A stretch of 64,000 nucleotides of DNA, taken from contig NZ_RJKN01000008.1 of assembly GCF_003751265.1 (NCBI RefSeq), positions 124,001 through 188,000 of the forward strand, given 5' to 3'. Positions 11,188 to 63,912 of this stretch are shown here, piece after piece (position 1 is the stretch's first letter; the number at the start of each line of letters is the position of its first letter). The notes beneath the pieces are model-generated. The model was given only the letters and a program-made list of their open reading frames with translations, searched no databases and was not told the origin of the DNA. Both the position numbers and the translations under genes were made by a program. This DNA is from Pseudokineococcus lusitanus (GTDB lineage Bacteria; Actinomycetota; Actinomycetes; Actinomycetales; Quadrisphaeraceae).

Positions 11188-11334
11188 GCATCTCGGCGCC
11201 CCTCTGCCGCGCGTGGGCCCTCCCCGCGGCAGAAGGGCGCCGACGTGCCGGCGCAGGGCGCCGGAGGCGGCACGAGGGCGCCGATGTGCCGGGTCCCGCG
11301 CGTCCCCGGCGGCAGGTGGGCGCCGAAGTGGGGC
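11188..11334. repeat. 41-42-bp-spaced palindrome array, GGGCGCCGA type (4 units)
   Basis: TCGGCGCCC at 11193-11201 and GGGCGCCGA at 11235, 11276 and 11318 lie 42, 41 and 42 bp apart. Each core is flanked by a GCGGCA box and a GTGCCGG box. The first two units form a hairpin with arms of 9 plus 8 bp. A GGGCCC dyad (11215-11220) lies midway between them. The array begins 6 bp after the stop of the cytoplasmic GH10 gene. Confidence 0.75.
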
Positions 11335-11380
11335 GTTCCCGGCCGTTGACGCCCGCCCGACCGCGTGCGACCGTTGCCGT

Positions 11381-11438: not shown

Positions 11439-13739
11439 GTGCGACGAGACATCCGACGGGGCGGCCGCTACGCCGCCCCGGCACTGGCGGCGGCGACCGC
11501 GCTGGCGATGGGCGTGCCGCTCGCGGCGTCCGCCGCCCCGGCGCCGGCCCCCACCCGGGCCGCGGCCGCGGTCCAGGCGGCGGCCGTGGACCTGACCTAC
11601 GACTTCGAGGACGGCACGCAGGGCTGGGGCGCGCGCGGCCCGGCGACGACGGCCGTCACCACCGAGGCGGCCCACGGCGGCGCCTCGAGCCTGCTCACCA
11701 CGGGCCGCACCGAGGGCTGGCACGGCGCCACGGTCGACGTGACCGGGGACCTCGCCGCGGGCGAGGCCGTCGAGGTCTCCGCCTGGGTCCGCCTGCCCGC
11801 GGGCAGCGCGCCCGCCTCGGTCAACCTCTCCGTGCAGCGCGACCTCGGGGGCAGCGCCTCCTACGAGGGCGTCGCCGGCGCGGCGGGGACGGTGACGGCC
11901 GACGCGTGGACCGAGCTCCGCGGCACCTACACGCTGCCCGTCGCCTCGGACCGGGTGCAGCTGTACGCCGAGGGCACGGCGGGCGCGTCCTTCCTCCTCG
12001 ACGACGTCACCGTGCGCACGACGAGCGTCCCGGGCATCCAGGACCTGCCCGGCCTGGCGGACGTGCTGGCCGAGGACGGGATCGAGCGGGTCGGCGTCGC
12101 CGTCGACCGCCGCGAGACGACCGGCCTGGCCTCGGAGCTCCTCACGCGCCACTACAGCGCCATCACGCCCGAGAACGACGGCAAGCCCGCCGAGATCCAG
12201 CCCGTCGAGGGGCAGTTCACCTTCGACGACCTCGACGCGCTGCTCGACTTCGCCGACGCGAACGACGTCGAGGTCTACGGCCACGTGCTCGTGTGGCACT
12301 CGCAGACGCCGGACTGGTTCTTCCTCGACGGCGACCGCCCCCTCACGAGCGCACCGGCGGACCAGGCGCTGCTGCGCAGCCGCATGGAGGCGCACATCAA
12401 GGCGATCGGCGAGCATGTCGCGGCGCGCTACCCCGACGGCGACAGCCCCATCTGGGGCATGGACGTCGTCAACGAGGTCATCGCGGACGGCGACAACGCC
12501 AACCCGCACGACATGCGCGACAGCCGGTGGTTCCAGGTCCTCGGCGAGACCTTCGTCGACGACGCCTTCCGCTACGCGGACCAGTACTTCCCCGGCACCG
12601 CGCTCTTCATCAACGACTACAACACCGAGATGCCGGCCAAGCGCGCCCGCTACGTCTCGCTCGTCGGGGCGCTGCAGGAGCGGGGCGTGCCGATCGACGG
12701 CGTCGGCCACCAGGCGCACGTCGACTTCGCGCGTCCGGTGCAGTGGCTGGCCGACTCGGTCGACGCCGTCGAGGCGCTCGACCCGGACCTCCAGCAGGTC
12801 GTCACCGAGCTCGACGTCAACTCCTCGCGGGAGAACCGCGGCGCGGACGTCGGCGGCGGCGGCGAGTACGTGCAGGTGACCGACGACCGCGAGGCCGCGG
12901 CCGCGGAGATCGGCTACTACTACCGCGACCTCTTCGACGTGCTGCGCGAGCGCAGCGACGTCATCTCCTCGGTGACGATGTGGGGCATCAACAACGGCCG
13001 CAGCTGGCTGCGGACGTGGCCGAGCGCCCGCCCGTGGGAGCAGCCGCTGCCCTTCGACGACGCGAACCAGGCGCTGCCCGCGTACTGGGGGATCGTCGAC
13101 CCGTCGCAGCTGCCCGAGCGGCCGGAGGACTTCCTGCCGCCGCGCTTCTCGGACCTGCCGACGGTGCAGGCGCGGGCCACGACGCCCGGGCCGGGCGGGG
13201 TCGCCGTCGACTACGTCGTGCCCGAGGTGCGGGACACGCAGGACGGCGTCGTGACGCCGACCTGCTCGCCCCGCGCGGGCAGCACCTTCGCCGTCGGCGA
13301 GACGCTCGTGCGGTGCGCCGCCACGGACTCGCGGGGCAACGTCGAGCGCGGCACCTTCACCGTCGAGGTCGCCCCGGCGACGCAGCTCGGCGTCACGCTG
13401 CGGGGCGCGAGCCCCGCGACGCCGCGGGTCGGCCGCACGGTGACGGCCACGGCCGTCCTCTCCGTCGACGGCCCGGGCGCCCTGCGCAGCCGGACGCTCG
13501 ACGTGGCGTGCGCGTCCGTCGAGGGCTCGCCGGGTCGCCTCGACCTGGCCGTCCAGCAGGCGGCGCTCGACCGCCTGGCGGTGCGCGACCTCCGCGCCGG
13601 CCGCGACGTCGTCGTGACGATGCGCGGGACGGCGACGACGGCGGGCGCGGCCGCCACCGACTGCACGGTCTCGGTCGAGGACGAGGCCGGCCTCGTCGTC
13701 AGCGACACGGTGCGCGTCGAGGTGGCAGTCCGTCCCTGA
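11439..13739 (+). CDS. Secreted modular GH10 endo-1,4-beta-xylanase
   Basis: A 766-residue extracellular xylanase. The GTG at 11439 is chosen because GGAGGAGG lies 7 bases upstream and it opens directly into an Arg-rich n-region, hydrophobic core and ASAAPA cleavage site. Domains: a CBM4/9/22-like carbohydrate-binding module (about 50-195), GH10 barrel (about 200-575) with ITPENDGK, VWHSQTPDW, acid/base Glu346 in MDVVNEV and nucleophile Glu457 in VVTELDV, then a hyalin-repeat (HYR)-like module (about 590-660, with a Cys pair) and a C-terminal beta module with another Cys pair. It would make xylo-oligosaccharides for the neighbouring importer. A strong terminator follows. Confidence 0.95.
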   Translation: MRRDIRRGGRYAAPALAAATALAMGVPLAASAAPAPAPTRAAAAVQAAAVDLTYDFEDGTQGWGARGPATTAVTTEAAHGGASSLLTTGRTEGWHGATVDVTGDLAAGEAVEVSAWVRLPAGSAPASVNLSVQRDLGGSASYEGVAGAAGTVTADAWTELRGTYTLPVASDRVQLYAEGTAGASFLLDDVTVRTTSVPGIQDLPGLADVLAEDGIERVGVAVDRRETTGLASELLTRHYSAITPENDGKPAEIQPVEGQFTFDDLDALLDFADANDVEVYGHVLVWHSQTPDWFFLDGDRPLTSAPADQALLRSRMEAHIKAIGEHVAARYPDGDSPIWGMDVVNEVIADGDNANPHDMRDSRWFQVLGETFVDDAFRYADQYFPGTALFINDYNTEMPAKRARYVSLVGALQERGVPIDGVGHQAHVDFARPVQWLADSVDAVEALDPDLQQVVTELDVNSSRENRGADVGGGGEYVQVTDDREAAAAEIGYYYRDLFDVLRERSDVISSVTMWGINNGRSWLRTWPSARPWEQPLPFDDANQALPAYWGIVDPSQLPERPEDFLPPRFSDLPTVQARATTPGPGGVAVDYVVPEVRDTQDGVVTPTCSPRAGSTFAVGETLVRCAATDSRGNVERGTFTVEVAPATQLGVTLRGASPATPRVGRTVTATAVLSVDGPGALRSRTLDVACASVEGSPGRLDLAVQQAALDRLAVRDLRAGRDVVVTMRGTATTAGAAATDCTVSVEDEAGLVVSDTVRVEVAVRP

Positions 13740-13754
13740 CGCCCACCAGCGCGT

Positions 13755-13788
13755 GAGGGGGCCGGGTCCGCGCAGACCCGGCCCCCTC
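13755..13788 (+). terminator. Intrinsic-type terminator after secreted xylanase
   Basis: Perfect 14-bp stem, arms GAGGGGGCCGGGTC and GACCCGGCCCCCTC, with a 6-base loop, 16 bp after the stop codon. No T-run, as usual in GC-rich actinobacteria. Confidence 0.8.
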
Positions 13789-13917
13789 GTGCGTCCCGGC
13801 GCCCGGGCACGCGTGACCGACCGGCCGCGACCCCTCCCGCCCGGGCCGGCGACCTGGCACCGTCGGCCCCGCCCGCACGGCCGCGGGCACGGGTCGTGGG
13901 CAGCACCGGGAGGCACC

Positions 13918-15105
13918 GTGGTCGGGTCGGCGGACGTCGTGGTCGTCGGGGGCGGGGTGGTCGGGGCGAGCGCGGCGTTCCGCTGCGCGCAGGCCGGGCT
14001 GGACGTCGTCCTCCTCGAGCGCGGGGAGCCGGCGGGGGGCTCGTCGGGCAAGCCGGTCGGCGGGGTCCGCGCGCAGTTCTCCGGCGCGACCAACGTCGCG
14101 CTGGCCGCCCGCAGCCTCGCCGCCTACCACCGCTTCACCGCGGAGATGGGGGCCGACGTCGGCCTGCGCCGGACCGGCTACCTCTTCGCCCTGCGCACGG
14201 CGGCCCACGTCGAGGCCTTCCGCCGTGCCGCCGTCGTCCAGCACGCCCACGGGGTCCCCAGCCGGCTGCTCGGGCCCGCCGAGGCCGCCCGGCGCGGGGT
14301 CGTCCTGCGGGCGGAGGCCCTCGAGGGGGCCGCCTGGTCGCCCGACGACGGCGTCGCGCGCCCCCGCGCCGTCGTCGCCGCCTACCTCGCCGCGGCCACC
14401 GCGCTGGGCGCGCGGGTGCGGCGGGGCTGCGCGCTCCTCGGGGCCGAGGCGATCCCGGGAGGCCGGGCCCGCCTGCGCACCACGGCGGGGGACGTCGAGA
14501 CGCCCGTCGTCGTCGTGGCCGCCGGCGCCTGGTCGGCCGGGGTGGGGCGGCTGCTCGGGGTCGACCTGCCCGTGCGCCCGGTGCGCCGCCAGATCGCCTT
14601 CGCCCCGCCCGCCGCCACGGCCGCCCTCGGGCTGCCGGTGCCCCCGGAGGCGCTGCCCTTCACCATCGACCAGACCTCGTGCGCGTACTGGCACGGCGAC
14701 GGCGAGGGCGGGCTCCTGCTGGGGTGGGCCGACCCCGACCAGGCCGAGGGGGAGGACGTCACCGTCGACGACGGCTGGCACGCCGGGCTCCGCGCGGCGC
14801 TGGCCGAGGTGGCCCCCGCCCTGGCCGGGCTCCCGCTCGGGCGCGGGTGGGCCGGCCTCTACGAGGTGACGCCGGACCGCGACGCGGCCCTCGGGCCGGT
14901 CCGCGGCGGCCTCGCCGACGACGGCGTCCGCGTGGTCGCCGCCACCGGCTTCTCCGGGCACGGCTTCCTCATGGCACCGGCCGTCGGGGAGGTGGTGCGC
15001 GACCTCGTGACCGGGCGGCCCCCGGTCGTCGACGTCGCCGGGCTGTCGCCGGACCGCTTCGGCGCCGCGGCGGCCGCCGTGCGGACCGAGGTGGCCATCG
15101 TCTGA
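13918..15105 (+). CDS. FAD-dependent oxidoreductase, DAO/sarcosine oxidase family
   Basis: A 395-residue flavoprotein starting at a GTG with GGGAGG just upstream. [16 protein letters not shown] (residues 6-21) is the GxGxxG dinucleotide-binding motif, followed by a Glu-ending strand (VVLLERG). PVGGVRAQFSGATNV matches the substrate/flavin region of D-amino-acid oxidase-like enzymes, and the C-terminal ATGFSGHGFLMAPAVGE is the classic flavin-contacting motif of sarcosine oxidase, dimethylglycine oxidase and related enzymes. These oxidise the C-N bond of a secondary or primary amine, giving H2O2 or passing electrons on. Substrate not predictable. It stands in a short plus-strand run with the HAD gene downstream. 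Confidence 0.88.
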   Translation: MVGSADVVVVGGGVVGASAAFRCAQAGLDVVLLERGEPAGGSSGKPVGGVRAQFSGATNVALAARSLAAYHRFTAEMGADVGLRRTGYLFALRTAAHVEAFRRAAVVQHAHGVPSRLLGPAEAARRGVVLRAEALEGAAWSPDDGVARPRAVVAAYLAAATALGARVRRGCALLGAEAIPGGRARLRTTAGDVETPVVVVAAGAWSAGVGRLLGVDLPVRPVRRQIAFAPPAATAALGLPVPPEALPFTIDQTSCAYWHGDGEGGLLLGWADPDQAEGEDVTVDDGWHAGLRAALAEVAPALAGLPLGRGWAGLYEVTPDRDAALGPVRGGLADDGVRVVAATGFSGHGFLMAPAVGEVVRDLVTGRPPVVDVAGLSPDRFGAAAAAVRTEVAIV

Positions 15106-15167
15106 CCGGCCGTCGTCCGCCCCGGCGACCGACCGCACGGGCCGGGCGCCCGCCTAGCCTGCGCCGC

Positions 15168-16024: not shown

Positions 16025-16163
16025 GGTCGGTCGATCGGCGGATGCCGGTGCAGGAGCGAGCGTCCCGGGCGCCCGCCCAGCCGCCCGGCGCAACGTGCCT
16101 GCGCCGGGCGGGTGCCGCTGGGGGGCGGGAGCAATCCGCCGTGGAGGGCCGTCCGGGCGCACC

Positions 16164-16268
16164 GGCACGTGACGTGGACGTCGACCTCACGTCCTGGACG
16201 CCCCGGGAGGTGGAGGAGGCGTCGACGTCACGGCCGGAGGGCTCTCACCGGTGACGTAGACGTCGCCT
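16164..16268. repeat. Dispersed palindrome cluster, GTGACGTNGACGTCG type
   Basis: Three copies of a CGTGACGTNGACGTCG-like box: forward at about 16168, inverted at about 16217-16231 and forward at about 16250. GACGTC centres of the first and third are 82 bp apart, twice 41, with the inverted copy near the midpoint. The cluster lies just past the stop of the quinone oxidoreductase gene. The rest of the 16025-16288 gap shows no gene. Confidence 0.55.
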
Positions 16269-16288
16269 TCGCGCGCCCGGGCTTCCGC

Positions 16289-43167: not shown

Positions 43168-43563
43168 GTGCAGGACGCGTCCCGCCCCTCGGAGGCCGTG
43201 GTCACGGTCTCCGAGGAGCGGGCCGTCTCCCGGCTCGTCCGGGTCCCCGTCGAGCGCGTGCGGGTCCGGACGCGCGTCGTCACCGAGGTCGTCCGCGTGG
43301 ACGTCGAGGTGCGGCGCCAGGAGCTCGTCGTCGAGCGCGTCCCCGTGGACGAGGACGAGGCGCGCGCGGCCGCGACGACGGACCTCGGCGAGCCCGAGGA
43401 GGTCGTCGTCGTCCTCCACGAGGAGGTCCCCGTCGTCACGACGGAGACCCGCCCGGTGGAGCGCGTCACCGTCCGCGCCCGCCGGGTCGAGAGCACGACG
43501 CCCGTCACCGTCGACCTCTCCCGCGAGGTCGTCGAGGTCGAGCAGGACGCCGGCCGCGGCTGA
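43168..43563 (+). CDS. DUF2382 (YsnF/AvaK) domain protein
   Basis: A 131-residue protein consisting almost only of DUF2382-type repeats: VVTVSEERAVSRLVRVPVERVRVRTRVV, VRRQELVVERVPVDE, VVVVLHEEVPVVTTETRPVERV. It starts at a GTG 5 bp after the stop of the larger PRC/DUF2382 gene, so the two are one transcript. Amphipathic strand repeats with alternating acid/base residues suggest self-association or hetero-association with the first protein's DUF2382 part (inference). Confidence 0.85.
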   Translation: MQDASRPSEAVVTVSEERAVSRLVRVPVERVRVRTRVVTEVVRVDVEVRRQELVVERVPVDEDEARAAATTDLGEPEEVVVVLHEEVPVVTTETRPVERVTVRARRVESTTPVTVDLSREVVEVEQDAGRG

Positions 43564-43615
43564 CGCCGCGCCCGCCACCACCCACCCGCACCGCGGAAGC
43601 AGCAGGAGGCACATC

Positions 43616-43813
43616 GTGCAGATCCCCAAGCAGCAGGTCATCGACCTCATCAAGAGCAAGGTCGGCGGCGAGAAGGCCGGTCAGGCCGACTCCGAGCTGC
43701 CGGACCAGGTGGACACCGACCAGCACGCCGGGCTCCTCCAGAAGTTCGGCGTCGACCGGCAGGAGCTCCTCGGCGGCGGGGGCGGCGGCCTCGCCGGCAA
43801 GCTCGGCCTCTGA
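43616..43813 (+). CDS. Small conserved-looking hypothetical protein
   Basis: A 65-residue acidic/lysine-rich protein: QIPKQQVIDLIKSKVGGEKAGQADSELPDQVDTDQHAGLLQKFGVDRQELLGG, then a Gly-rich end. Two amphipathic helices and a turn are predicted from the pattern; no cysteines or membrane span. AGGAGG precedes the GTG at 43616 with ideal spacing. Last of the three-gene stress cluster, ahead of a very strong terminator. Function unknown; small proteins with this IPKxQV...LPDQVD layout are common in actinobacteria (from memory). Confidence 0.85.
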   Translation: MQIPKQQVIDLIKSKVGGEKAGQADSELPDQVDTDQHAGLLQKFGVDRQELLGGGGGGLAGKLGL

Positions 43814-43824
43814 CGCACCCGCTC

Positions 43825-43867
43825 CACGACGACGGCCCCGGCGCGCTGCGCCGGGGCCGTCGTCGTG
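43825..43867. terminator. Twenty-bp perfect hairpin terminator
   Basis: Arms CACGACGACGGCCCCGGCGC and GCGCCGGGGCCGTCGTCGTG pair fully around a GCT loop, 12 bp after the stop at 43813 and before the convergent gene ending at 43895. Confidence 0.88.
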
Positions 43868-43894
43868 CTCCGAGGGCCGTGGGCGAGCGCGCGG

Positions 43895-44347
43895 TCAGCG
43901 TGCGACGGCGCCGGTGCCCAGCGCCGCGGTGACGTCGGCGGCGAGCGCCGCGGCGGACCGCTCGGACGGGTCGAGGAGGACGTCGGCCCGCGCCACCGGC
44001 CACCAGGTCCGCCCGTCCCCCGTCTCGTCCCCGGACGCCGGGGGCAGGATCGCCACGAGGACGGCGTCGAGGCCGGCGCGGAGCAGGGCCGCCTCGACGA
44101 CGGCCCACGCCCGCTCGTCGGCGAGGGGGCAGGCGACGACGAGGCGCTCGCTGCGCCAGGCCATGAGCTCGGCGGCGGCGGTGGCCGTCAGCGCCCGCCA
44201 GCCGGGGGACGCCTCGAGGTCGTCCGCGCCGTCGAGGGCGGTGGCGAGCGGACCGACGTCGACCAGCCGTGCCCCGGGCAGCAGGTCCCACAGCTCGTCG
44301 GCGACGTCCTCGGCGAGCTGCGCCGCTCCGGTGAGCCACAGCACCAC
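43895..44347 (-). CDS. Hypothetical protein with kinase-like opening lacking a P-loop
   Basis: A 150-residue protein. The GTG at 44347 lies 6 bases after a TACCCT -10 box, so the message is probably leaderless; longer in-frame starts are Arg/Pro filler. The opening VVLWLTGAAQLAEDVADELWDLLPGARLVDVGPLATALDG resembles the first strand and helix of adenylylsulfate kinase-like P-loop proteins, but the Gly-Lys-Ser/Thr is absent. The middle has LMAWRSERLVVACPLADERAWAVVEAALLRAGLDAVLVAIL, again kinase-like. It could be a degenerate or structural relative. Function unknown. Confidence 0.68.
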   Translation of the reverse strand: MVLWLTGAAQLAEDVADELWDLLPGARLVDVGPLATALDGADDLEASPGWRALTATAAAELMAWRSERLVVACPLADERAWAVVEAALLRAGLDAVLVAILPPASGDETGDGRTWWPVARADVLLDPSERSAAALAADVTAALGTGAVAR

Positions 44348-44445
44348 AGGCCGAGGGTAGGGACGGGCGGGCGGTCCCGCCCGTCCACGCGGGGTCCCGG
44401 CACGGAGCCCGTCGAGGCGCCCGCGCACGTGGCCCCCGCCTGTCC

Positions 44446-44755
44446 CGCGTCGCTGCCGACGTCGGCGGAAGGGGGCCCGGTCTCCCCACTTCGCTGCCGA
44501 AGTCGTTGGGCGGGGGCCTTGCTTCCCGACTTCGCTGCCGAAGTCGTTGGGCGGGGGCCCTGCGTCACGACTTCGCTGCCGAAGTCGGTGAGAGGGGGCC
44601 CTGCGTCACGACTTCACTGCCGACGTCGGCGGGAGGGGGCTCGGTCTCCCCACTTCGCTGCCGAAGTCGTTGGGCGGGGCCTTGCGATACGACTTCGCTG
44701 CCGAAGTCGGTGAGAGGGGGCCCTGCGTCACGACTTCGCTGCCGAAGTCGGCACT
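44446..44755. repeat. Eight-unit 41-bp tandem array of GACTTCG/CGAAGTC hairpins
   Basis: The core GACTTCGCTGCCGAAGTC, a 7-bp stem with a CTGC loop, recurs with CTGC at 44453, 44494, 44535, 44576, 44617, 44658, 44698 and 44739: spacing 41 bp, once 40. Intervening 22 bp are also conserved (GTTGGGCGGGGGCCCTGCGTC in various forms), with a GGGCCC dyad near the midpoint. Unit 5 has CACTGCCGACGTC, a decayed dyad. The array fills most of the 44348-44859 gap; 44756-44859 shows nothing further. Confidence 0.9.
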
Positions 44756-44859
44756 ACGGGCGACCTCGCCAGCGAGCGGGCCGGGCGACGGTCAGGTGTC
44801 GACGCCGTCAGCGACCTCGACGAGGACCGCCGAGGCGCACGCGTGGACAGAGGGGCTCC

Positions 44860-45096
44860 TCAGCGGAGCCGGCGGGCCGGCGGGGCCGGCCGCTGCCACC
44901 ACGCGAGGGCGCGCGGTGCGGTGGCCCGGGCGACGCCCAGGGCCAGGAGGGCGACGACGACGAGCGCGGCGGCGGCCACGGAGGGCCCGCTCGCGGCGAC
45001 GACGAGGGCGGCGACGGCGGCGAGCACCATCGTCGCGGCGGCGGTCGTGACCGGTGCCAGGGCGGCACCGCGGCGGTTGCGCTGCTCGAGGTACAT
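44860..45096 (-). CDS. Small two-helix membrane protein, candidate metal-regulated
   Basis: A 78-residue protein: MYLEQRNRRGAALAPVTTAAATMVLAAVAALVVAASG, then a second hydrophobic segment PSVAAAALVVVALLALGVARA and a basic tail (RALAWWQRPAPPARRLR). Two membrane helices joined by a very short turn. No known family. The ATG is preceded by a weak GGAGG (11 bases upstream). Its interest is the sequence AGTTCGGTGCACAGAAACC, 38 bp upstream in the right direction, which matches the putative MntR operator of the manganese transporter at 17 of 19 positions. Confidence 0.62.
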   Translation of the reverse strand: MYLEQRNRRGAALAPVTTAAATMVLAAVAALVVAASGPSVAAAALVVVALLALGVARATAPRALAWWQRPAPPARRLR

Positions 45097-45134
45097 GCCG
45101 GCCTCCGTCTCGCGTCCACGACCCACCCGCGGGG

Positions 45135-45153
45135 GGTTTCTGTGCACCGAACT
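45135..45153 (-). promoter_or_regulatory. Second MntR-type box
   Basis: On the reverse strand AGTTCGGTGCACAGAAACC differs from the 17290 box only at positions 13 and 19. It lies 38 bp upstream of the small membrane protein gene and 198 bp ahead of araD on the other strand. Confidence 0.6.
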
Positions 45154-45225
45154 CTCCGGCACGGACGGGCCCCTGGCAAGACGAGCGGGGGAGCCGAGCG
45201 GGGACGTGGTGGACCTCACTCCACC

Positions 45226-45238
45226 GTGAGCGTTAACA
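45226..45238 (+). promoter_or_regulatory. LacI-family operator ahead of araD-araA
   Basis: GTGAGCGTTAACA (reverse TGTTAACGCTCAC) fits the LacI-family consensus TGTTARCGYTAACA well. It lies 113 bp upstream of araD and is a likely AraR-type site. No regulator gene is adjacent. Confidence 0.55.
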
Positions 45239-45350
45239 TGCCTGCGCGCGGCACGACGAGGACGTCGGGTGCCGTCGGCAGGAGCTCCGGGCGGTCGAGC
45301 CGGGGGCAGGACGGACGACGACGGCCGCGGGGCCGGGACGGGAGCGGCGC

Positions 45351-46148
45351 GTGAGCACCGACCAGCACGAGGACGGGCGGGCGGTGCCGGCGACGGACCG
45401 CGACCTGCCCGAGGAGGTCCGCCGCGAGGTGGCCCGCCTGCGGGACCAGCTCGTCGTCCTGCACGCGGAGCTCGTGCGCAACGGGCTCGTCGTCTGGACG
45501 GGCGGCAACGTGTCCGCGCGGGTGCTGGGCGCCGACCTCTTCCTCATCAAGCCGTCGGGGCTGTCCTACGACGACCTCGACGCGGCGTCGATGGTGCTGT
45601 GCACGCTCGACGGCGAGGCCGTCGACCCGGCCCAGCAGCCGTCGTCCGACACGGGCTCGCACGCCTACGTCTACCGCCACATGCCCGAGGTGGCCGGCCA
45701 GGTGCACACGCACTCGACCTACGCGTGCGCGTGGGCCGCCCGCGCGGAGGAGATCCCCTGCGTGCTCACCGCGATGGCGGACGAGTTCGGCGGCCCGATC
45801 CCGCTCGGGCCCTTCGCGCTCATCGGCGGCGAGGACATCGGCCGCGGCGTCGTCGAGACGCTCACCGGCCACCGCTCCAAGGCCGTCATCATGCAGAACC
45901 ACGGCGTCTTCACGATCGGCAAGGACGCGAAGGCAGCCGTCAAGGCCGCCGTCATGTGCGAGGACGTGGCCCGTTCCGTCCACATCGCCCGCCAGCTGGG
46001 GGAGACCGTCCCGATCCCCCAGGACGCGGTCGACAGCCTCTACGACCGCTACCAGAACGTCTACGGCCAGCGCCCCGCTGCGCCGTCCGCCCCGGGGGCC
46101 GGCGCCGACGCCGGCGCCGGCACCACCGCCGAGGAGGCATCCCGATGA
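45351..46148 (+). CDS. araD: L-ribulose-5-phosphate 4-epimerase
   Basis: A 265-residue class II aldolase-fold epimerase that converts L-ribulose-5-phosphate to D-xylulose-5-phosphate. [13 protein letters not shown] and [10 protein letters not shown] bind the phosphate; [11 protein letters not shown] (His-x-His) and the later [11 protein letters not shown] His make the zinc site; [13 protein letters not shown] is a typical C-terminal motif of AraD-type members. The last 25 residues are a Pro/Ala/Gly tail. GTG start at 45351. The stop overlaps araA (ATGA). araB (ribulokinase) is not in the window. Confidence 0.92.
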
Positions 46149-48041: not shown

Positions 48042-48079
48042 GCGCGTCGATGTGACGGTCCGCCGTCAGATCGACGCGC
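48042..48079. repeat. Large hairpin of unknown role
   Basis: GCGCGTCGAT (48042-48051) pairs with ATCGACGCGC (48070-48079), continuing inward with TGACGG/CCGTCA around TCCG: 16 of 17 pairs. It comes 14 bp after a full terminator, so a second terminator is not needed. A perfect palindrome CCACGTCGCGACGTGG follows at 48100-48115. The rest of the 47976-48239 gap shows no gene. Confidence 0.6.
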
Positions 48080-48239
48080 GCACCTCCTCGGCGCGCGAGC
48101 CACGTCGCGACGTGGAGCGGGTGCTCGGCGCAGCCGTCGCCGGGGCGCCACCCCAGGCCCGTCCCACCGGGCGCGACCCGCCACGGGCGGTGAGACTGGC
48201 GCCTGCCCGTGACCGTCGTCCCCACCTGAGGAGGCCCCC

Positions 48240-63612: not shown

Positions 63613-63834
63613 ACGAACGGGCGCCTGTTCGCGCGGTGCAAGGCCCGTGGGCGGCGAACAGGCGCCTGTTCGCGCTCTGCAAGGGGTCCTCTCTGCGAAC
63701 GGGCGCCTGTTCCGGCTCTGCGAGGGGCCCTGTCTGCGAACGGGCGCCCGTTCCGCTTCTGCGGGGGCCCTGTCTGCGAACAGGCGCCTGTTCGCGCCGT
63801 GGGAGGAGCATGGGCGGTGAACCGGCGCCTGCCC
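63613..63834. repeat. Six-unit 41-bp tandem array of GCGAACAGGCGCCTGTTCGC palindromes
   Basis: The 20-bp perfect palindrome GCGAACAGGCGCCTGTTCGC and close variants have GGCGCC at 63620, 63661, 63702, 63743, 63783 and 63824 (41, 41, 41, 40, 41 bp). Spacers of about 21 bp are also related (CTCTGCRAGGGGYCCTSTCT), with GGGCCC near the midpoint in units 3-4. Variants such as GGGCGCCCG keep the central symmetry; GAACCGGCGCCTGCC at the right end is decayed. The array follows the aztC stop by 14 bp. Confidence 0.9.
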
Positions 63835-63912
63835 GGTAGCTCGGGGCGGTCATCGGGGCGTCTGCCCGCGCGACGCTGAGGAGGGTGTTGGGCTCGTCGT
63901 CGCGGCGATGTG

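Follow-up and report, generated by a model that had tools for sequence, protein, structure and literature searches.

Short-palindrome arrays of varying sequence and common 41-bp spacing near gene ends in a bacterial genus

Introduction

Between two minus-strand genes of the window, the 64,000-nucleotide stretch of DNA analysed here (GC 75-78%; host genome 3.84 Mb in 19 contigs), a short inverted repeat recurs eight times at intervals of about 41 bp. Is this array an isolated repeat amplified by replication slippage, a string of RNA hairpins, or a set of sites that acts at the level of DNA? An earlier note on the sequence had raised all of these readings and had proposed that the array belongs to a family defined by its period. 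We compared the array with others in this genome and in three congeners (G001, G002 and G003) for spacing, placement, orientation and conservation.

Results

Structure and setting of the array

The dyads of the array at 44446-44755 have the form CGACTTCG-CTGC-CGAAGTCG, a class that we named F1. Orientation A reads GCTGCC and orientation B its reverse complement, GGCAGC; all eight dyads are in orientation A. Successive centres lie 41, 41, 41, 41, 41, 40 and 41 bp apart. The features of the locus are as follows.

44446..44755, no strand: eight-dyad F1 array, 41-bp period (TRF score 380 at period 41 and 443 at period 123)
44445..44464, no strand: F1 dyad 1, terminal and deviating, CGTCG..CGACGTCG form, orientation A
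44486..44505, no strand: F1 dyad 2, CACTTCG arm, orientation A
44527..44546, no strand: F1 dyad 3, perfect CGACTTCG/CGAAGTCG stem, orientation A
44568..44587, no strand: F1 dyad 4, perfect stem, orientation A
44609..44628, no strand: F1 dyad 5, deviating arms (CTTCA / CGACGTC), orientation A
44650..44669, no strand: F1 dyad 6, CACTTCG arm, orientation A
44690..44709, no strand: F1 dyad 7, 40 bp past dyad 6, orientation A
44731..44750, no strand: F1 dyad 8, 41 bp past dyad 7, orientation A
44473..44478, 44555-44560, 44596-44601 and 44718-44723, no strand: spacer GGGCCC, half a period from the dyads
43895..44347, minus strand: flanking gene, 150 aa, no Pfam match, called start 97 bp from the array
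44860..45096, minus strand: flanking small gene, 78 aa, no Pfam match, 3' end 109 bp from the array

All eight CTGC loops lie where the earlier note had placed them (44453, 44494, 44535, 44576, 44617, 44658, 44698 and 44739). The GACTTCG/CGAAGTC stem that it ascribed to every unit is present in four; the units at 44453 (GCGTCG..CGACGTC), 44617 (GACTTCA..CGACGTC), 44494 and 44658 (both CACTTCG) depart from it. Similarly, the GGGCCC it described half a period from the dyads is exact in four of the seven spacers. By our gene calls, which come from a codon-score script of our own and not from annotation, the array is intergenic, with minus-strand genes (43895-44347 and 44860-45096) on both sides. 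Elsewhere in the window, a single near-perfect palindrome (GCGCGTCGATGTGACGG / CCGTCAGATCGACGCGC) occupies 48043-48083, in the intergenic space preceding a Cu/Zn superoxide dismutase gene, and this stretch has short BLAST matches at several other places in the same genome.

Dyad classes and their distribution

The F1 core, ACKTCGGCAGCGAMGT, had 116 matches with at most one mismatch in the 3.84-Mb genome (46 forward and 70 reverse), while the reversed pattern, searched as a control, had 1 forward and 0 reverse. The near-copies fall mostly in about 25 short arrays, with few solitary copies, and their spacers carry little information across arrays, being mostly unrelated from one array to another. 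Three further arrays were recognized in the window.

63614..63835, no strand: F2 array (GAACAGGCGCCTGTTC) of 41-bp period, some 14 bp downstream of the stop codon of a ZnuA-like gene
11188..11335, no strand: weak third array, CGGCA..GGGCGCCGA..GTGCCG units, 65% self-identity at lag 41
16155..16277, no strand: weak fourth array, F3-like units (GGTGACGTGGACGTC..TCACG), 64% self-identity at lag 41

Two of these had been named as sister arrays in the earlier note; the one at 63613 is clear (TRF score 213) and the one at 11188 is weak. The F2 class, to which the array at 63613 belongs, forms about 15 arrays in this genome, in addition to those of F1. F4 (GGCACATCGGC..GCCGACACAGTGC), also with a 41-bp period, is represented by two arrays on contig C1 and one more match on C5. 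F3 (TGAAGGAGGCGTCACCTTCG) forms many arrays in G002 and G001, and F5 (GGCGACATGGCCACACGTCGCC) is abundant in both, occurs in a weaker form in this genome and was not found in G003. That species, in which F3 and F5 are rare or absent, carries other classes with a 41-42 bp period.

Each dyad site is about 20-22 bp long and quasi-palindromic, and in three classes it is polar. Since at least five classes, F1 to F5, share a 41-42 bp period across four genomes of the genus, the proposed family defined by period holds. A search of this genome and its congeners for dyad arrays of 40-42 bp, which the earlier note had suggested as a check, found them genome-wide here and, in other classes, in three congeners. 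The array at 44446-44755 is a member of a large set of short-palindrome arrays and not an isolated slipped repeat.

Searched for in 12 other members of the genus and family, the exact F1 dyad was absent; among 46 further genomes of the order, 2 had one copy each. A scan of an 84,980-species collection, from which records near the genome of the window were possibly excluded, found no two neighbouring F1 dyads. Such lineage-specific families, like the abundance of F3 and F5 in G001 and G002 and their near absence from G003, would suit selfish or neutral REP-like repeats, in which a head-to-head A-B pair is the founding mobile unit (REPIN-like), runs grow by tandem duplication, 3' ends tolerate insertion and the cell gains no function. 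We regard this, the strongest rival to the reading favoured below, as doubtful but a serious possibility.

A common spacing of 41 bp

The 101 arrays listed, which represent four classes, give 322 neighbour distances, of which 305 fall within 40-42 bp and 222 are exactly 41, units more than 60 bp apart not being joined; F5 units favour 42 bp. Because these arrays were gathered by BLAST with array queries, the sample is not unbiased; each query contributed 30 loci at most, and the listing for the relatives is incomplete. Overlapping or duplicate loci (e.g. L019, L023, L025, L027, L029, L347 and L351) were removed before counting.

In self-similar non-coding stretches from 464 kb of this genome, 41 was the commonest lag (8 of 24). 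Across samples of four congeneric genomes, lags of 40-42 or their multiples accounted for 24 of 50 such stretches, some of which look coding-like (e.g. G002 L100 at 19130); by genome, the counts were 12/24 here (464 kb), 3/5 in G001 (79 kb), 6/17 in G002 (140 kb) and 3/4 in G003 (120 kb). When 280 kb was sampled from each of two further genera in the family, none of the 5 and 25 self-similar stretches had such a lag, the lags of 121-122 in G006 being twice the 61-bp period of one long array. The additional genomes surveyed beyond G004 and G006 gave six stretches, one of them a weak lag-42 stretch (G024, L141).

Repeats of other kinds were also observed. On contig C1 of this genome, a 31-bp tandem repeat (GCCCGGACCGGCCGCGCACCGACCGGGGAAC; L129, 13466-13590) lies downstream of a gene, 31 bp being about three helical turns, and a non-coding 14-bp tandem repeat (CGGCTCACACCYGA) occupies L111 (1051-1170). 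In G002, L101 (C1, 13036-13508) holds tandem partial copies of a tRNA-like 3' part with a period of about 85 bp, followed by a weak array of 41-bp lag. The long 61-bp-period array of G006, which belongs to another genus of the family (L135, C1, about 12571-15160), has constant CCATGCACGTGGGGGTGATCC repeats and looks CRISPR-like. By our reading, a few TGACCGAGGTCA-type palindromes lie about 52 bp apart in G004, also of another genus (L132, C1, 16785-17090), and they are possibly a five-turn counterpart, the sole such stretch in 280 kb.

Orientation-flip junctions keep register, with 35 of 41 distances at 40-42 bp. In array L006 an F1 run is followed, exactly 41 bp on, by an F2-type dyad, and in L015 F1 is followed by a 37-bp step to two F2-type dyads 41 bp apart. 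Midway between dyads, the arrays tend weakly toward GGGgcCCC, most clearly in F1 and F3.

The spacers bear on whether the arrays are ordinary, functionless tandem repeats born of replication slippage. Slippage would fit the 42 of 160 neighbouring spacer pairs that are at least 85% identical. However, of the 36 neighbouring pairs that are less than 50% identical, 21 still have both intervals at exactly 41, and a few dyad classes with one period recur across the 101 arrays listed, in four genomes; slippage as the whole explanation appears very improbable. Constant spacing is no proof of selection on the period, because tandem duplication would pass spacing on too, and the constant period could be partly inherited in this way. 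A period of 41-42 bp common to different dyads is not what a purely selfish origin would predict.

Placement near gene 3' ends

Of the 101 arrays, 88 have a called gene on either side, 12 adjoin the edge of the stretch examined and 1 falls within a called gene. Among the 88, 51 lie in tandem, 28 in convergent and 9 in divergent gaps (79/88 tandem or convergent). The background, drawn solely from 464 kb of this genome (the G001 assembly has 580 contigs), comprised 146 array-free gaps of at least 100 bp: 82 tandem, 8 convergent and 56 divergent. Relative to these, arrays are depleted in divergent gaps (Fisher p about 2e-6) and enriched in convergent ones (p about 1e-7).

Of the 51 arrays in tandem gaps, 44 lie closer to the upstream gene's 3' end than to the next start, the median distances being 28 and 96 bp. 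The array at 44446-44755 is one of seven tandem exceptions: the upstream 3' end is 109 bp away, and the next called start is nearer, at 97 bp. This non-random placement speaks against slippage; it would also be expected of neutral repeats tolerated only at 3' ends.

Polarity and orientation

Because F1, F3 and F5 dyads hold conserved asymmetric positions (the centre in F1; pairs 1, 3 and 9 in F3), each unit of these classes has a direction. Such positions fit sequence recognition better than a hairpin. Across these three asymmetric classes, orientation was scored in 80 arrays, of which 42 were tandem, 21 convergent, 11 divergent and 6 other. Neighbouring units had the same orientation in 219 cases and changed it in 41, of which 39 were A-to-B and 2 B-to-A. 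A net A-to-B switch was found in 37 arrays (14 F1, 4 F3 and 19 F5) and a net B-to-A switch in none; three of the 37 have a sister-species partner already in the count, which leaves the picture unchanged. Slippage would not be expected to produce this polarity, whereas a founding pair of fixed orientation, as selfish repeats would have, would leave an A-to-B order (37 vs 0) and explain it simply.

A simple polar transcription roadblock predicted sense-oriented arrays in tandem gaps and mixed arrays in convergent ones. This candidate is unsupported, because arrays showed no consistent orientation relative to transcription (22 B-rich and 16 A-rich when read in the sense direction, p = 0.42) and mixed-orientation arrays were equally common in convergent (10/21) and tandem (19/42) gaps. 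A strand bias of F3 alone, with 9 pure B arrays against 1 pure A in the sense direction, was not upheld across classes.

RNA hairpins and terminators

In a genome whose GC content is too high for U-tract terminators, tandem RNA hairpins could end transcription intrinsically or stabilise mRNA 3' ends. The usual location of the arrays at 3' ends suits this reading, and bacterial terminators made of hairpin clusters near stop codons have been reported, including in a high-GC mycobacterium (PMC8355165). Our arrays resemble those clusters in placing several hairpin-capable dyads by stop codons but differ in their common sequence, fixed period and weak stem covariation; the term 'period' is absent from that paper. 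Conventional hairpins with a stem of at least 10 tended to be missing from array gaps (7/56 vs 39/178 other 3'-end gaps, p = 0.18), which points in the same direction; as a trend only, it did not lead us to retain the idea that arrays replace ordinary terminators. RNA of the array at 44446-44755 folds better than shuffled sequences (z -5.7), as expected of any dyad array, and had no Rfam match with E up to 1 (window 43500-46000).

Stem pair 5 of F1 covaries clearly (23 units G-C vs 64 T-A, 15 T-C and few others) and pair 7 of F3 weakly (p = 0.019). At the remaining stem pairs of F1, F2 and F3, changes are mostly one-sided, and F3 dyads hold conserved internal mismatches. Since strong covariation, the compensatory signal that the earlier note had thought worth looking for, is limited to one base pair, an RNA-hairpin function is disfavoured. 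The G-U-competent orientation, on our reading of the consensus forms, comes first in F5 and last in F3, so RNA folding does not explain the orientation order, and a terminator would have no need of a 41-bp ruler. The suggested structured-RNA array is thus not borne out by the mostly uncompensated stem changes or by the inconsistent place of the wobble-competent orientation, and we set structured RNA or terminators aside as the leading reading, judging them improbable.

Conservation and replacement between species

G001 and G002 are close relatives: of eight common same-class arrays, seven have best flank matches 94-99% identical and one 90%. Several of their arrays differ by whole units (e.g. 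2 vs 6 and 2 vs 5), a change that either slippage or selfish repeats could produce. The earlier proposal of amplification by slippage stands to this extent; slippage alone gives no account of the common period, the placement or the one-way orientation. When two sister-species pairs of orthologous arrays with comparable numbers of units are aligned, 161 of 173 dyad positions and 88 of 113 spacer positions agree, with flanks at 91-94% and gap columns numbering 3 in dyads and 5 in spacers. Greater conservation of dyads than of spacers at orthologous units is not predicted for a purely selfish origin. Terminal units carry more mismatches than internal ones in F1 (2.38 vs 1.34), F2 (3.10 vs 2.13) and F3 (2.64 vs 1.52), the difference in F5 (2.02 vs 1.47) not being significant.

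Five orthologous gaps hold arrays of different class in this species and its relatives.

L002 (F1) here; L281 and L278 (F3) in relatives
L009 (F1) here; L285 and L277 (F3) in relatives
L014 (F1) here; L283 and L292 (F3) in relatives
L089 (F2) here; L273 (F3) in relatives
L078 (F2) here; L323 and L346 (F5) in relatives

The number of common loci expected by chance is 0.93 (P = 0.003 for at least 5), a rough estimate that takes 36 loci in relatives, 41 arrays in this genome and some 1,580 3'-end gaps as its input. The cross-species pairs L021-L335 and L022-L322 were left out, their adjacency being too loose. Arrays of different class at the same gap are likewise not predicted by a purely selfish reading.

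At the regions corresponding to the array at 44446-44755 and to two others on contig C1, a lag scan, which short or diverged arrays could escape, detected no periodic array in the relatives. The relatives' gap at 44446-44755 is 2.1-3.6 kb, compared with about 1 kb here, and at the third tested contig C1 locus synteny to the relatives is broken or partial. That this array was not detected in three congeners agrees in part with what the earlier note had named as marks of a mere slipped repeat, absence from close relatives among them, and would suit slippage; five other loci keep an array across species.

Comparison with REP, BIME, REPIN and CRISPR elements

REPs lie between unidirectional and convergent genes, some genomes have several types, and CGTC-type REPs apparently lack a transposase (PMC3733652). 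BIMEs combine regular spacing with alternating orientation, and BIME-2 binds gyrase (PMC2817692). The arrays described here resemble REP/BIME elements as short, imperfect palindromes in more than 100 copies, mostly extragenic, polar and regularly clustered, with lineage-specific classes and sites near the 3' ends of tandem and convergent genes. They differ in having one 41-42 bp ruler common to different classes, with a weak half-period GGGCCC tendency, and in forming single-orientation runs, mostly with one one-way switch, where BIMEs alternate.

For any class and side, between 0 and 5 units carry GTAG or CTAC at the end, the highest count being that of F5 (5/158, about 2 expected). CGTC near the right end was more frequent than the roughly 14% expected in F3 (38/135) and F2 (21/67) and was not enriched in F1 (27/209) or F5 (14/158). 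A Y1 (RAYT-type) transposase, PF01797, was found in none of the four genus genomes (95-98% complete), with controls positive in 5 of 14; we rejected RAYT-driven REPs on this result, which also counts against the selfish reading. Because the GTAG tag, the Y1 transposase and alternating orientation are all missing, we do not assign the arrays to BIMEs. In size, number and place they correspond to REP/BIME elements, and the best reading of this analysis is that they may work like BIMEs.

Pseudomonas fluorescens SBW25 has REPINs and tandem REP arrays that likewise show an inverted pair of fixed polarity, and some of its tandem arrays are evenly spaced. REPIN distances in P. fluorescens are most often 71 and 110 bp, and a number of clusters adjoin RAYT genes (PMC3116915); here, the distance is 41-42 bp, no RAYT was found and spacers are mostly unrelated between arrays. 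Like CGTC-tagged REPs, the arrays have a 3'-end location and no known dedicated transposase, but CGTC falls inside many of the dyads (113/135 F3 and 86/158 F5 units), with no clear unpaired end tag. Repeats of about 20 bp and spacers of about 20 bp and constant length recall CRISPR arrays, from which ours differ in being many, dispersed and short, with both orientations inside one array and spacers often alike. No description of 41-bp arrays of this kind was found in the literature searched, subscription papers being mostly outside reach, and the word Actinobacteria is absent from the main text of PMC3733652 and of PMC2817692.

Discussion

The palindrome sequence varies by array and by species while the spacing of about 41 bp stays constant, which points to a common, still unproven role in marking gene ends. 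A role at the level of DNA, with sites read from one face, may fit these observations best. We tentatively favour the reading that the arrays are genus-specific, REP/BIME-like elements of gene ends that would form a protein-bound DNA boundary between transcription units.

How might such a boundary work? Quasi-palindromic sites 41-42 bp apart would be separated by about four helical turns, and at this spacing all sites present one DNA face. A putative two-fold-symmetric DNA-binding protein could fill them cooperatively, with a different binder, or a different specificity, for each dyad class. Once loaded, an array near a gene 3' end would act as the boundary, either stopping read-through or absorbing transcription-driven supercoiling between neighbouring units. 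Of this picture, binding, cooperativity and boundary function are what we infer. The nine of 88 arrays in divergent gaps are evidence against a boundary.

A more specific form of the boundary reading seems unlikely, if conceivable. In it, the dyads would be polar dimer sites on a four-turn ruler, bound by fast-diversifying dyad-binding proteins that build convergent A-to-B boundary filaments; the recognition sequence would be swapped wholesale, with locus, period and polarity kept within the genus.

Many bacteria are known to carry REP-like elements, with several proposed functions; the arrays described here would be a REP-like system without RAYT in an apparent actinobacterium. We draw this affiliation from the GC content and from an arabinose-isomerase scan with at least 594 hits, in which the 80 kept, at 62-74% identity, were nearly all labelled Actinomycetota, one being a Proteobacteria MAG. 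Several dyad classes of one genus follow one spacing rule, and the polar classes one orientation rule. The constrained part of the system (ruler, polarity and place at gene ends) is separable from the replaceable part, the sequence, and this split makes its function testable.
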